Of a DNA stretch of 13,369 nt, positions 6,690 to 10,759 are shown piece after piece. Every line of letters begins with the position of its first letter. Position 1 is the stretch's first letter. This DNA comes from an uncultured Eubacteriales bacterium (lineage in GTDB: Bacteria; Bacillota; Clostridia; Peptostreptococcales; Anaerovoracaceae). The position numbers and the translations under genes were made by a program. The notes beneath the pieces were generated by a model. It worked only from the letters and a program-made list of their open reading frames with translations, did not search any database and was not told the origin of the DNA. The stretch covers positions 1 through 13,369 of the forward strand of contig CACXCQ010000009.1 in the NCBI GenBank assembly GCA_902766185.1, written 5' to 3'.

Positions 6690-8387
6690 TTACCGGGTCA
6701 CCACCTGCCAGATCTTCTGGCCGGCGATCTCGTCCTCCAGAACGAAGGTGATCTCCTTGCCGTCCTGCCCGTACCATTTGTTGAAGTATTTCTCCAGCTT
6801 TTGCATATTCTTCTGCTCCACCACGTACACCCGGTCGTTGTCGATGATGTCTCCGAACATGTTGTTCAGACCGTAGGCCTTCAGGTGATCCATGGTGTAC
6901 TCGGACTTGGTCCCCCATCCGCCGAAGCAGAGCATGTTCTTCTCAAACCCCGGCTGCGGCGCCATCTCCGGATGGAGATAGACGATGGCCGAATCCTTTT
7001 CCCTGGTGGAGAATACGAAGAACCGGTTCTCCCTGGCCTTCATATAGTCTGTAAGGTCTGAATTCATCACGCCGTTCTCCAGCTTTTCCGCCTTATCGTT
7101 GCTGTAGGTAGCCAGCGGATACACCGCCGTCAGGATGACGAATGCCGCGATCACGCAGAGAACCCTTCTCTCCCAGACGGCGAAGGCGCTGACCTCTCCG
7201 GCCTTGTTCCTCCACTGCATGTCGCTGTAATAGTAGTACAGCAGCCAGAGGGCCGCCCCGAGGTCCGCGATGTAGGACGCCCGGTAGACCGTTCTCCCCA
7301 GGTGATAGAGGTAGAGATAGAGCAGGATCGTGAAGCCTCCGAGCAGAATGATGTAGATCCAGTATTTGGGCCGCAGGCACAGTATGCCTCCCGCCGCTAG
7401 CAGGACCAGTATGGCGATGTGTATCCCGCCGGGCTCAAGCTTGCGGACATTCTTCATCATATCCTTGACGAACGTCTCCGCTGTTTCCTTCGGGCTGGGG
7501 GTGACCGCCGCAGACTTCATGTATATCTCGTCGATCTTCTCCAGGTTCTCCTGGCTGGCTGCTCCGTCGTAATCCAGATACCAGGCGTCGATCAGGTAGA
7601 GGTCGTTTTTGGAGATCCCCATGGCTTTCAGATCATCTTTGATGGTGTCGTAGCTCTGGTACACCGGATAGTCGATGACGTCCGCCCTCACCCGGTTGTA
7701 CTGGCTGTATTCGGTGATGTCGCTGTTATGGCTGGAGTAGTAGTTCATCCCGTAGGTCCCGCAGAGCAGGATCACCAGCACGATGTAAAGCGCGATCCGC
7801 CCGCCGCTGAAATACCCGTCGCTGACCAGATCGTGCCGATAGCGGATCGCCCAGAGAAGCAGATACAGCGCCGCAAAGGCGATCGCCACATACAGGTTGA
7901 CGAACCGCAGGCAGGCTCCGGTGTAGACCAGGAGCAACCCCAGGAAATGATACAGCGGGTTGCGCATTTCGATCACCGCGTCCGTCATGATCATGATACC
8001 CGCCACCACCAGCAGCGCGGAGGTCTTCGTAAACTGGATCACCGCGTAGTGATCAAAGGCAAACACCGCGATCACCAGCACGCAGATCATCGTGAACCAA
8101 AAGGATTTCCGCTGGTCCATGAGAATCTTCAGCACGGCGGTGAAAGCGACGAAGGACATGATGATCTGCATCCAGACGAACACGTTGACCCCCGGCACCA
8201 GAGCCTGGATGGGGATCAGCGCCCGGCACAGGAACATGTTGACCAGAAGCACGTTGTCGTATCCCTCAACGATCCTGAGCACGATGCCGAAATCATCATT
8301 GGACTCATAGGAAAGATCCGTGACCGCCATAATGGCGCCCAGTATGGCAGCGTTGATCAGAAATGATATGAGCCAGTTTCTTTTCAT
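6690..8387 (-). CDS. Polytopic membrane protein, possibly GT-C-like, unrecognised family
   Basis: The 565-residue protein has a membrane-embedded first half: helices near residues 7-23, 46-64, 68-88, 97-112, 122-137, 146-180 and 198-213. A soluble stretch (about 215-318) follows, with YNRVRADVIDYPVY (230-243) and GISKNDLYLIDAW (257-269). More helices lie at about 321-336, 341-360, 372-388 and 408-426, with a soluble C-terminal domain (430-565). The acidic motif ESNDDF (28-33) right after the first helix is where GT-C transferases carry their acidic residues, so a lipid-sugar-dependent transferase is possible; this is inference and I cannot name the family. The start at 8387 is supported by GGAGG five bases upstream and by a promoter at 8413-8441, which excludes the in-frame ATG at 8480. 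It lies 109 bp upstream of the L,D-transpeptidase. Confidence 0.85.
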   Translation of the reverse strand: MKRNWLISFLINAAILGAIMAVTDLSYESNDDFGIVLRIVEGYDNVLLVNMFLCRALIPIQALVPGVNVFVWMQIIMSFVAFTAVLKILMDQRKSFWFTMICVLVIAVFAFDHYAVIQFTKTSALLVVAGIMIMTDAVIEMRNPLYHFLGLLLVYTGACLRFVNLYVAIAFAALYLLLWAIRYRHDLVSDGYFSGGRIALYIVLVILLCGTYGMNYYSSHNSDITEYSQYNRVRADVIDYPVYQSYDTIKDDLKAMGISKNDLYLIDAWYLDYDGAASQENLEKIDEIYMKSAAVTPSPKETAETFVKDMMKNVRKLEPGGIHIAILVLLAAGGILCLRPKYWIYIILLGGFTILLYLYLYHLGRTVYRASYIADLGAALWLLYYYYSDMQWRNKAGEVSAFAVWERRVLCVIAAFVILTAVYPLATYSNDKAEKLENGVMNSDLTDYMKARENRFFVFSTREKDSAIVYLHPEMAPQPGFEKNMLCFGGWGTKSEYTMDHLKAYGLNNMFGDIIDNDRVYVVEQKNMQKLEKYFNKWYGQDGKEITFVLEDEIAGQKIWQVVTR

Positions 8388-8392
8388 AGATT

Positions 8393-8397
8393 CCTCC
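8393..8397 (-). promoter_or_regulatory. Ribosome binding site of the membrane-protein gene
   Basis: GGAGG five bases before the ATG at 8387. Together with the promoter just upstream it rules out the longer reading from 8480. Confidence 0.8.
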
Positions 8398-8412
8398 CTC
8401 CCGACATGTTGT

Positions 8413-8441
8413 ATTCTATCATATGCAAAGGCAGGTTTCAA
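8413..8441 (-). promoter_or_regulatory. Sigma-A-type promoter for the leftward genes
   Basis: On the minus strand TTGAAA (8436-8441) is followed after exactly 17 bases by TAGAAT (8413-8418), each one mismatch from consensus. The predicted transcript starts near 8405 and carries the ribosome binding site at 8393-8397, giving a leader of about 20 nt. It would drive the membrane protein and perhaps the L,D-transpeptidase. Confidence 0.75.
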
Positions 8442-8544
8442 ACCCATATACAGGGAACCTGCAGGGAGCCTGCGGGGCATCCGCGCACCCGCCTGTTCTC
8501 CTCTCTGCCTATCCCGATCAGTCCCACGAACTTCTGAACGAGAT

Positions 8545-8589
8545 GTCGAGATTTCAGCGGTTTAGCATCCGGCAGATCTCGACTTTTTT
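8545..8589 (+). terminator. Terminator-like hairpin formed by array unit 1
   Basis: GTCGAGAT (8545-8552) pairs with ATCTCGAC (8576-8583), followed directly by six T (8584-8589). The shape is that of an intrinsic plus-strand terminator, with a long 23-nt loop that can fold a little further (CGG/CCG). No plus-strand gene upstream needs it in this window, so it may instead be part of the repeat element or end an unrecognised small RNA. Confidence 0.35.
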
Positions 8590-8813
8590 GCCTGCAAAGG
8601 CTGGTCAGCCAGGTGAGGTCGAGATTCTCCCTGGTCGAGCGTTCCATTATCTCGACCTGGCCTGTGCACGGAGAGTGTTTTTTGTCAGATCCGGAAGAAA
8701 AGTCGTTATTCCAATGCGTCAGAACAGCTACGATCTCGACATCTCCTTCGTTTTTCGTCAGGTCCGGAAGAGCGGTCGTTATTTCAATGCTCCTGAACAG
8801 CTACGATCTCGAC
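8545..8813 (+). repeat. Array of four 39-nt units ending in ATCTCGAC
   Basis: Each unit has an 8-nt left arm, 23 nt, then ATCTCGAC. Units lie at 8545-8583, 8618-8656, 8702-8740 and 8775-8813, so unit starts are 73, 84 and 73 bp apart. The left arm is GTCGAGAT in units 1 and 2, a perfect inverted repeat of the right arm, and GTCGTTAT in units 3 and 4, with two changed bases. The 23-nt interior differs between units 1, 2 and the closely similar pair 3/4. T-runs follow unit 1 (8584-8589), unit 2 (8678-8683) and unit 3 (8751-8755) on the plus strand. In unit 2 the stem is 10 bp (8616-8625 with 8649-8658). Function unknown. Confidence 0.8.
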
Positions 8814-8822
8814 ATGTCCTTC
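8684..8822 (+). repeat. Two-copy tandem repeat, 73-bp period
   Basis: The copy at 8684-8749 matches the copy at 8757-8822 at 57 of 66 positions by hand alignment with no gaps. The last seven bases of the period (8750-8756 against 8823-8829) diverge. Both copies contain units 3 and 4 of the ATCTCGAC array. Differences fall on all codon positions of any common frame, which gives no sign of coding constraint. Confidence 0.85.
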
Positions 8823-8865
8823 ACGGATCGTTCCGGGCAGTTAAGCGGTTGCAGTTCCCTCCTTG

Positions 8866-8919
8866 ATATTTTTGATTCTGTACGGACGATGGGGTAAACC
8901 GTATAGAATCCGAAAATAT
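8866..8919. other. Long imperfect hairpin (19 paired bases)
   Basis: The inner arms GATTCTGTACGG (8874-8885) and CCGTATAGAATC (8899-8910) pair over 12 bp with one G-U. Beyond a 1x2 internal loop, ATATTTT (8866-8872) pairs with AAAATAT (8913-8919). The loop is 13 nt. Neither strand has a T-run after the stem, so it is not an ordinary terminator. It could be a structured RNA leader, a cruciform or protein-binding site, or a relic of a small palindromic element. Confidence 0.65.
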
Positions 8920-8968
8920 GAAAGAACAACTATAATGAACACTGATCTGTTCCTTGTGATAAGCGACT

Positions 8969-8994
8969 CCGTTCGCTCTTACGGGAGCGAACGG
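8969..8994. other. Perfect 10-bp hairpin with 6-nt loop
   Basis: CCGTTCGCTC (8969-8978) and GAGCGAACGG (8985-8994) are exact reverse complements around TTACGG. The hairpin sits about 70 bp upstream of the -35 of the deacetylase promoter. There is no T-run, so it may be an operator palindrome or part of an RNA. Confidence 0.65.
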
Positions 8995-9062
8995 GATTTA
9001 CACCATTGTTTAGACTTGACCGGACCGCACCGAACTGACCGACTTGTCAATCCCCTCTGCAC

Positions 9063-9091
9063 TTCACATTCCCCGGGATTTGGTATATAAT
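9063..9091 (+). promoter_or_regulatory. Strong sigma-A-type promoter for the deacetylase operon
   Basis: TTCACA (9063-9068, one mismatch to TTGACA), a 17-bp spacer and a perfect TATAAT (9086-9091). Transcription should start near 9098, leaving about 70 nt of leader before the first gene of the rightward operon. Confidence 0.8.
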
Positions 9092-9166
9092 ATGAAAAGG
9101 TATAGCCTTGCGGGCGGACCGGCCCGATGAATCAGTTAAGACAACAGGAAGGACAGGCAGATAATC

Positions 9167-10759
9167 TTGAATATGAAGTCAGCAACCATCAATATTCGAA
9201 AAACGATCATAACCGCAATTCTTTTTGCCGCGCTGGCCATGCTCGCCGGCACAGCTCCCGCGTGGGCATCCACCCAGACCGATGCGGCCGGGAACACACT
9301 GGCCATCGGAGGCACTGCTGCGGCGGGAGTAAACCTTCATGTGACCATGACCGGGGTGAATCAGGAGCTTTATACCACGGATTCTGCCCAGATCCCCGAC
9401 CAGCAGTCGCTGGCGGACGGAACGGTGCTCTATATGCCGGAGCAGTTCATCTGGAGCGGCGCCTACGACAGCGGTGAGACCATTTCCCTGACGAACGACG
9501 CTCTGGTAGTGCGGCAGGCCGACGCCAATTCCGAGTCCGAGCCCGCGCCCGCGGTGGACCAGTCCGAGCCTGCGCCCGAGGCGGACCAGACCGAGGTCGC
9601 CCTGCCCTTTGGCGAGTTCGATGTCGTCCTGCCTTACGTGGGCACCGGGAATTTCACTGGGCTCTTCCGGCAGTACCAGCTGCAGACGGACGCAGAGGGA
9701 GTCCGGTCCTGGGTGGCCGGGGACACCTCTCTCGTTCGGGACAAGCTGACCATCAAGGGCCGCGTCCTCTATGACGCTGGCAAGGGCACTTTCAAAAACG
9801 GCAAAAGCGTGAAGACGAAGTACTACACGAATGGAGCGAAACTCACCGGCCGGCCGACACCGCAGGCGAAGAAGAAATTCTTCCTGGGATGGTACACGAA
9901 GAAGAACGGCGGCAAGCAGATCACCGGTAAGATGAAGATCCACTTCGGCAAAAAACAGACCGTCAGATACTACGCCCACTGGGAGACTAAGGGAGAGAAA
10001 TCCCCGGTCATCTCCTACAAAGGCAAGAACGCCAAGCGGATCCCTGTCCTCTGTTACCACCGGCTGTGCAGCCCCTCGGAAAAGCGCAAGCATCGGGGCA
10101 GCTTCAGCAGCCTGTTCATGTCCGAGACCAAATTCCGTCAGGAGATGAAGTGGCTCCACGATCACCACTACACCACGCTGAGCATGAAGGAGTTCTACCT
10201 CTGGCACCAGGGAAAGATCAAGGTTCCCCGCAAGTCCGTGGTGATCACCTTTGATGACGGCATGTATTCCATCATCAAGTACGGCCTGCCCATTCTGGAA
10301 AAGTACGACATGAAAGCGACCATGTTCATGATCGGCAAGGCTGTACCCAACAAGACCAACAAGAGACCTACCCGCTACGGCACCTACCACACCACAGGCC
10401 GGGATGTGATCGATTACGTCAGCAAGAAATATCCTGACTTTGAATTCCAGAGCCACACCTGGGGCCTGCACGTGAGGACCGGCAGCGGAGCCGGATACGC
10501 CAGGACAAAATCCTACAACTATCAGAAGAAGGATTTTGAGAAGATGTACAAGAAGTTCGGATACGAGTATCTGGCCTACCCCTTCGGGCACTACACCAGC
10601 AGAACCATCAGGGCCGCGAAGAAGGGCCACATCAAGATGGCCTTCACCTATGGTTCCAACACCTGGGCCACCCGGAGCCAGGGCCGTTACACCATCCGGC
10701 GGATCAAGGCCGACGGGGACGAATCCCTGTCCCGTTTCACCCGCTGGTTCTATAAGTAA
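9167..10759 (+). CDS. Secreted polysaccharide deacetylase (NodB) with InlB B-repeat-like domain
   Basis: The 530-residue protein has a signal peptide (basic start, hydrophobic 13-30, cleavage near APAWA-S at 34-35) and an N-terminal region of unknown fold (36-115). A short acidic linker follows, with the near-repeat SEPAPAVDQ/SEPAPEADQ (123-140). Next is a Listeria-Bacteroides/InlB B-repeat-like domain (about 198-272, with FFLGWYTKKNGG and a YYAHWE ending). The C-terminal NodB domain (about 290-530) has TFDDG (361-365), the metal-binding HTWGLH (His430, His435) and AYPFG (470-474). Such enzymes remove acetyl groups from GlcNAc-containing polymers or peptidoglycan outside the cell. The start is either TTG at 9167 (AGGAAGGA at 9146-9153, 13 bases upstream) or ATG at 9173; both keep the signal peptide. 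It is first in an operon with the glycosyltransferase, 14 bp apart. The substrate is unknown. Confidence 0.9.
   Translation: MNMKSATINIRKTIITAILFAALAMLAGTAPAWASTQTDAAGNTLAIGGTAAAGVNLHVTMTGVNQELYTTDSAQIPDQQSLADGTVLYMPEQFIWSGAYDSGETISLTNDALVVRQADANSESEPAPAVDQSEPAPEADQTEVALPFGEFDVVLPYVGTGNFTGLFRQYQLQTDAEGVRSWVAGDTSLVRDKLTIKGRVLYDAGKGTFKNGKSVKTKYYTNGAKLTGRPTPQAKKKFFLGWYTKKNGGKQITGKMKIHFGKKQTVRYYAHWETKGEKSPVISYKGKNAKRIPVLCYHRLCSPSEKRKHRGSFSSLFMSETKFRQEMKWLHDHHYTTLSMKEFYLWHQGKIKVPRKSVVITFDDGMYSIIKYGLPILEKYDMKATMFMIGKAVPNKTNKRPTRYGTYHTTGRDVIDYVSKKYPDFEFQSHTWGLHVRTGSGAGYARTKSYNYQKKDFEKMYKKFGYEYLAYPFGHYTSRTIRAAKKGHIKMAFTYGSNTWATRSQGRYTIRRIKADGDESLSRFTRWFYK

Follow-up and report, generated by a model that had tools for sequence, protein, structure and literature searches.

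An array of four short inverted-repeat units lies between two divergent operons in the genome of an uncultured Eubacteriales bacterium, and it raises the question what kind of element this is and whether it acts as DNA or as RNA. The window, i.e. the whole stretch of 13,369 nucleotides that was analysed, had been described before from its letters alone. This initial annotation named a repeated regulatory site, a small structured RNA and a family of short palindromic genomic repeats as possible explanations.

Structure of the array

The region 8545-8813 consists of four 39-nt units, each of 8+23+8 nt, with start-to-start distances of 73, 84 and 73 bp. Re-measurement confirmed the equal length and the spacing given initially, as well as the division into two perfect units and two with a degenerate left arm. 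The GTCGAGAT/ATCTCGAC arms are perfect in units 1 and 2; in units 3 and 4 the left arm is GTCGTTAT, two bases off. The features are listed below, with strand given where one applies.

8413..8441, minus strand: predicted promoter of the left minus-strand gene, TTGAAA-17-TAGAAT, 10/12 (consensus match only)
8536..8822, no strand: whole element in this copy, four units inside terminal inverted repeats; 18 matches in the own genome
8545..8583, no strand: unit 1; half-site GTCGAGAT, 23 nt, half-site ATCTCGAC
8584..8617, no strand: linker 1; 34 nt, opens with TTTTTT and holds GCAAAGGCTGG at 8594-8604
8594..8604, plus strand: GCAAAGGCTGG 11-mer; found genome-wide, DNA uptake sequence-like, with 234 exact occurrences in the own genome and one for the reversed control
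8618..8656, no strand: unit 2; both half-sites perfect
8657..8701, no strand: linker 2; 45 nt, exceeds linker 1 by one helical turn
8702..8740, no strand: unit 3; degenerate left half-site GTCGTTAT, perfect right half-site
8775..8813, no strand: unit 4; tandem duplicate of unit 3 (73 bp, 86% identical)
9063..9091, plus strand: predicted promoter of the right gene, TTCACA-17-TATAAT, 11/12 (consensus match only)

The element ends, GAAGGAAA[AT]GTCGAGAT and ATCTCGACATTTCCTTC, are common to other copies. Within the window ATCTCGAC occurs six times, whereas 200 shuffles had 0.72 on average and never reached six. The 73-bp duplication of units 3 and 4 includes their linkers. Three units had been reported to be followed by T-runs. 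This holds directly for unit 1 only (8584-8589); the other two runs are set off, starting 21 nt past unit 2 (8678) and 10 nt past unit 3 (8751).

The own-genome copies on contigs C113 and C6 have a fourth unit as well. The 73-bp segments were compared for a possible single ancestral origin of the fourth unit: third units are identical to each other at 62-65 of 73 positions, fourth units at 57-61, and the third and fourth unit of the same copy at 59-63. A coding origin was rejected. A 147-aa frame spans the array, but other copies have single-base indels and, by eye, no conserved start.

Copies and arm subfamilies in the own genome

The element was searched in 41 genomes (the own genome, 24 of the same genus and 16 of the same order) with a cut-off of E<=0.001. 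The own genome gave 18 matches, placed beside unrelated genes, and two other genomes gave one short match each, covering the linker motif only. The full four-unit query was matched by three own copies, on contigs C9 (the window), C113 and C6. The search of the unit in the own genome and in relatives, suggested as a check in the initial annotation, thus revealed further copies. Together with sister families with other arms, the 18 matches support the proposed family of short palindromic genomic repeats. An exact-pattern scan of a genome-contig collection, which may omit the own genome, yielded no matches.

A second subfamily has the arms GTCAATGT/ACATTGAC in place of GTCGAGAT with the architecture kept, and adjoins the first on some contigs. 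Its search resulted in 16 matches: 14 to elements or parts of them and two to flank pieces. For comparison, 12 copies of subfamily 1 (fourth units trimmed, partial copies excluded) were aligned with nine copies of subfamily 2. All 21 share common ends, a common linker 1 motif and the same three-unit plan; the terminal inverted repeats GAAGGAAA[AT]GTC... are present with some substitutions. Arms are more conserved than loops and linkers, with identities of 95.9, 68.7 and 73.8% within subfamily 1 and 97.6, 82.3 and 86.0% within subfamily 2. Between the subfamilies the values are 60.6% for arms, 44.5% for loops and 51.0% for linkers.

The change from GTCGAGAT to GTCAATGT is made en bloc across the half-sites of all units, save one degenerate half-site per subfamily. 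In subfamily 1 this is the left one of unit 3 (exact in 0/12, the right arm in 8/12), in subfamily 2 the right one of unit 1 (exact in 0/9). Unit 2 of subfamily 1 has both arms exact in 12/12 copies, and unit 1 has an exact left arm in 11/12 and an exact right arm in 10/12. The step across linker 2 is 73 nt in the second subfamily instead of 84 nt in the first. A third arm family of the own genome, CGTGTTGA, has 37-nt units in 9 of 10 cases. At one hybrid locus (L022 1207-1376, own contig C136), a subfamily 1 unit is followed by 37-nt CGTGTTGA/TCAACACG units with steps of 81 and 52 bp.

Related arrays with other arms

Units of relatives in the same genus were located by whole-genome pattern searches at <=1 mismatch, with reversed patterns as controls. 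G010 contains 35 TTCGCGAT units in 13 loci, G011 six TTCATCGA units in two arrays, and G012 21 CTTCCAA units of 37 nt; the reversed control was 0 in each. G011 has two more TTCATCGA-type units with half-sites 30 or 32 bp apart. Across the families the unit length is 39 or 37 nt.

Furthermore, perfect 8-nt arms were counted per spacing in stretches chosen regardless of arrays. Spacing 23 was found 10 times in G010 and six times in G011, each against a mean of 2.9 per spacing. In 328 kb of the own genome it was mildly raised (17, mean 11.3), with spacings 19 and 6 reaching 20. No increase (0-3 against 2.1-3.8) and no repeated arm was observed in 500 kb in total of G001, G004, G008, G018 and G023; the samples of G003, G013, G022 and G024 are small (79 kb) and little informative on this spacing.

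Two four-unit arrays in G011 (L220 15372-15691 and 19196-19516) flank a single operon, which by eye encodes an ABC transporter ATPase and permease; no others were found at <=1 mismatch. G010 holds a second family, TGGG[CT]GTG/CAC[AG]CCCA, with 39-nt units in 6 of 7 pairs (L211 1019-1146, L209 4639-4765, L252 19017-19121). G012 has AT-rich CTTCCAA(AA) arms at L282 261-545 with 41-bp steps, the palindromes standing nearly back-to-back.

Helical phasing

The steps between successive G010 units are 73, 94-95, 104-105 and 115-116 bp. Within 8-16 bp the best period for the 23 steps is 10.48-10.5 bp (R=0.963; 0/20,000 uniform draws as high), where, as in all phasing statistics given here, copies of one array are related; the four distinct spacing classes alone give P=0.0008. 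For 15 steps of G012 the best period is 10.36 (R=0.957, against 0.823 at 10.5), so that 10.4 fits better; its long steps look like sums of short ones (207=41+63+103) and thus are not independent. Six steps of G011 result in a best period of 10.54 (P=0.009), and the own genome has just two step classes, 73-74 and 84. The 15 distinct classes over the four genomes reach R=0.818 at 10.5 (0/50,000 draws as high). A poor fit was obtained for TGGGYGTG (steps of 89 and 66 bp) and CGTGTTGA (81, 81 and 52). In general, the phasing holds in five of seven arm families, and since the periods are near the turn of B-DNA, the units of these five are placed on one helical face.

Half-sites of one unit lie 31 bp from each other, roughly three turns. 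The central 13 nt contain TCTGA/TCAGA in 16/35 units of G010, 5/21 of G012, and 8/43 and 10/33 of the own subfamilies, whereas four other frames gave 0 or 1; in G011 units the motif was found in 0/6. Spacing mostly in whole helix turns suggests a protein bound along one face of the DNA. No phased repeats of this kind were described among the entries listed by the literature searches.

Proposed nature of the element

On balance, the array is probably one copy of a dispersed, non-autonomous intergenic repeat, whose dyad sites on one helix face would be bound by a putative lineage-specific protein in a nucleoprotein complex that drives its spread. A site comprises two half-sites of 8 bp at a distance of 31 bp, and its dyad centre frequently carries a TCTGA/TCAGA-type motif. 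Such sites occur in strings of two to six, and the linkers would set all of them on the same face, at distances of about 7, 8, 9, 10, 11 or 13 turns from site to site. The putative protein may bind the half-sites cooperatively along this face and so build an extended complex. This complex would spread the element by driving its copying or recombination, in the way of MITE-like elements mobilised in trans. If the protein drifted separately in every lineage, this might account for the lineage-specific half-site sequences. Dispersal, fixed geometry, conservation of arms over loops, the en-bloc arm change and the phasing in five families are observed at the DNA level; the protein-bound DNA is the likelier part of this reading, the mobility the less likely one.

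An explanation as operator arrays of a chromosomal regulator or a chromosome-organising protein, kept for function and not by self-interested spread, is unlikely. Conservation of the arms above the loops and the helical phasing speak for it, and the array in the window stands between two divergent predicted promoters. In 8300-9250 four promoter-like matches were found against 0.9 expected, among them one per divergent gene, flanking the array on either side. To the left, Pfam domains of CDP-glycerol phosphotransferase, YfhO, sugar dehydratase and YkuD were detected (the 596-aa protein nearest to the array had no Pfam match), to the right polysaccharide deacetylase, glycosyltransferase 2 and ATP-grasp. 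These domains are in agreement with the surface-polymer operons assumed initially. However, gene calls around 37 arrays gave both neighbours for 22, which are 17 tandem, four convergent and one divergent, the latter being the window. Twenty neighbour proteins had no common theme, few neighbours are shared between species, and several arm families coexist in one genome. Hence, of the repeated regulatory site considered in the initial annotation, the protein-bound DNA is suggested by geometry and phasing, but locations and neighbours lack a regulatory theme. A weak or contig-edge frame overlaps the array in four cases; in two, the frame of a neighbour extends 32-36 nt into the array edge.

Quite improbable is a structured RNA or tandem terminator, whose hairpins would serve as attenuators, terminators or processed RNA once transcribed. 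For 8536-8823, the plus strand has a better fold than shuffled sequences (z=-2.75, 0/200; minus strand z=-1.91, 8/200), which is expected of any palindrome set. Arms pair in 91.9% of alignment cells compared with at most 47.4% when slid, and TTTTTT directly follows unit 1. But in each subfamily one hairpin of the three is broken in all copies, and 61 of the 67 double-changed pair cells are a single subfamily swap repeated alike in three helices. Pairing within a hairpin does not require that one common arm sequence changes jointly in three of them. The six separate double changes fit hairpin pairing and equally a dyad protein site. Unit spacing by helix turns is not expected of an RNA, and both predicted promoters have the array on their upstream side. 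No terminator-like site was detected by a simple scan of 8300-9250, and Rfam had no match in the window at gathering score. The small structured RNA that had been suggested is thus little supported.

A REPIN-type element mobilised by a RAYT (Y1) transposase is highly improbable. The conserved inverted ends, variable loops, intergenic and clustered position and several families per genome would agree with it, and doublets and ordered clusters are described for REPINs (PMC3116915). However, Y1_Tnp (PF01797) was detected in 0/5 array- or motif-bearing genomes at E<=0.001, where a miss is possible in each since they are 71-83% complete; the control of named genomes was positive in 5/14. That no partner protein was found also counts against the non-autonomous, protein-bound repeat preferred here. 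PF01797 and PF01548 were the transposase families searched, and the latter (IS110) gave no credible match in nine genomes: two sub-threshold matches rose to 31.0 and 29.4 bits on re-scoring, against a cut-off of 29, but both proteins score higher as BadF/BadG ATPases (194 and 189 bits). Among 475 frames near the 37 arrays no recurrent neighbour gene suggested a partner. A phage or plasmid origin was rejected as well, since blastn against phages and plasmids gave no match and exact two-unit patterns of two arm families were found 0 times in viral contigs.

A local chance duplication, to which the tandem duplicates 3 and 4 might point, has a negligible probability and was rejected in view of the 18 own-genome matches and the arrays of the same geometry in three relatives.

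Comparison with known repeats

The nearest kinds, as far as their descriptions go, are the Neisserial mosaic elements, REPINs and BOX. The Neisserial intergenic mosaics (dRS3 and RS elements) likewise form arrays of short repeats whose inverted ends are conserved, between the genes of a genome with an abundant uptake sequence (PMC3898611). dRS3 is defined there as ATTCCC(N8)GGGAAT with 646-725 copies, next to 1831-1910 copies of the DUS (PMC3898611). The present units of 8+23+8 with other arms do not have this form. Compared with dRS3 by its description, half-sites are 31 bp apart instead of a 20-bp unit, the arm sequence depends on lineage and subfamily, and the steps correspond to helical turns.

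REPINs and BIMEs with RAYT share inverted conserved ends, variable loops, clusters and several families (PMC3116915), but the present element has 8-bp half-sites instead of the 16-mers of that paper, phased linkers, and no Y1 detected in the five genomes. BOX elements of Streptococcus pneumoniae are composite intergenic repeats with a variable count of internal tandem modules, too (PMC3049150); according to the description of BOX, the fixed-length, helically phased dyads found here set the element apart. MITEs are also short, non-coding, dispersed and intergenic with terminal inverted repeats. In contrast to them, the element has multiple internal sites, and neither a target duplication nor a parent transposon (PF01797, PF01548) was recognised; flanks inspected by eye for target-site duplications are themselves repetitive mosaics of other repeats. 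It is not a CRISPR array either, because only the 8-nt arms are shared between units and the loops differ. Lineage-specific arms on a constant, helically phased frame are not reported for Neisserial mosaic elements, REPINs or BOX in the literature covered.

The uptake-like 11-mer

Exact copies of GCAAAGGCTGG number 234 in the own genome, 311 in G001, 308 in G010 and 337 in G011, with 0-4 in the reversed controls. G012 has 29, and the other 20 of the 25 genomes searched have <=14. Both strands are used about equally, with little conservation past the 11 bases, and 79 of 95 occurrences are in coding sequence, at a coding fraction of 0.882. In the own genome GCAAAGGCAGG is as frequent as GCAAAGGCTGG. 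The general form is GCAAAGGC[AT]GG, with window sites at 8594-8604 and 8425-8435. Within the arrays the 11-mer occurs in 10/21 aligned own-genome copies and 4/13 G010 loci; the 2.9 kb of G010 arrays hold five copies, while sampled stretches have 0.33 per kb.

Judged by its sequence and distribution, the 11-mer looks like a candidate DNA uptake sequence: it is very abundant, short, on both strands, and coding as well as non-coding. It resembles the Neisserial uptake sequences as described in PMC3630211. ComEC was found in 8/9 genomes and is not discriminating. For Firmicutes or Clostridia, the listings of the literature search held no description of uptake sequences.

Since copies carry the 11-mer, the element may travel between cells via natural transformation. 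We tentatively consider a new class of self-spreading intergenic element, possible but doubtful at present, in which a phased dyad string is the recognition unit, read by a putative protein that would have diverged in half-site preference between lineages and even inside a single genome. If true, there would be half-site 'dialects' comparable to those of uptake sequences. Studies of small interspersed palindromic repeats usually treat them as hairpins. In the present arrays, linker length varies but mostly keeps the helical period, and arms change by lineage on a constant geometry. This makes the protein-binding reading directly testable and supplies a bait for the protein. It also yields a comparative set, with a DNA-binding specificity that seems to have changed several times inside one genus.

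Further dispersed intergenic modules were observed at 8966-9070 of the window and in the flanks of many arrays (e.g. L018 1250-1450, L014 2300-2400). They include GTTCGCTC...GAGCGAAC hairpins and a segment with ATTTACACCATTGT. The intergenic regions of the own genome look like repeat mosaics.
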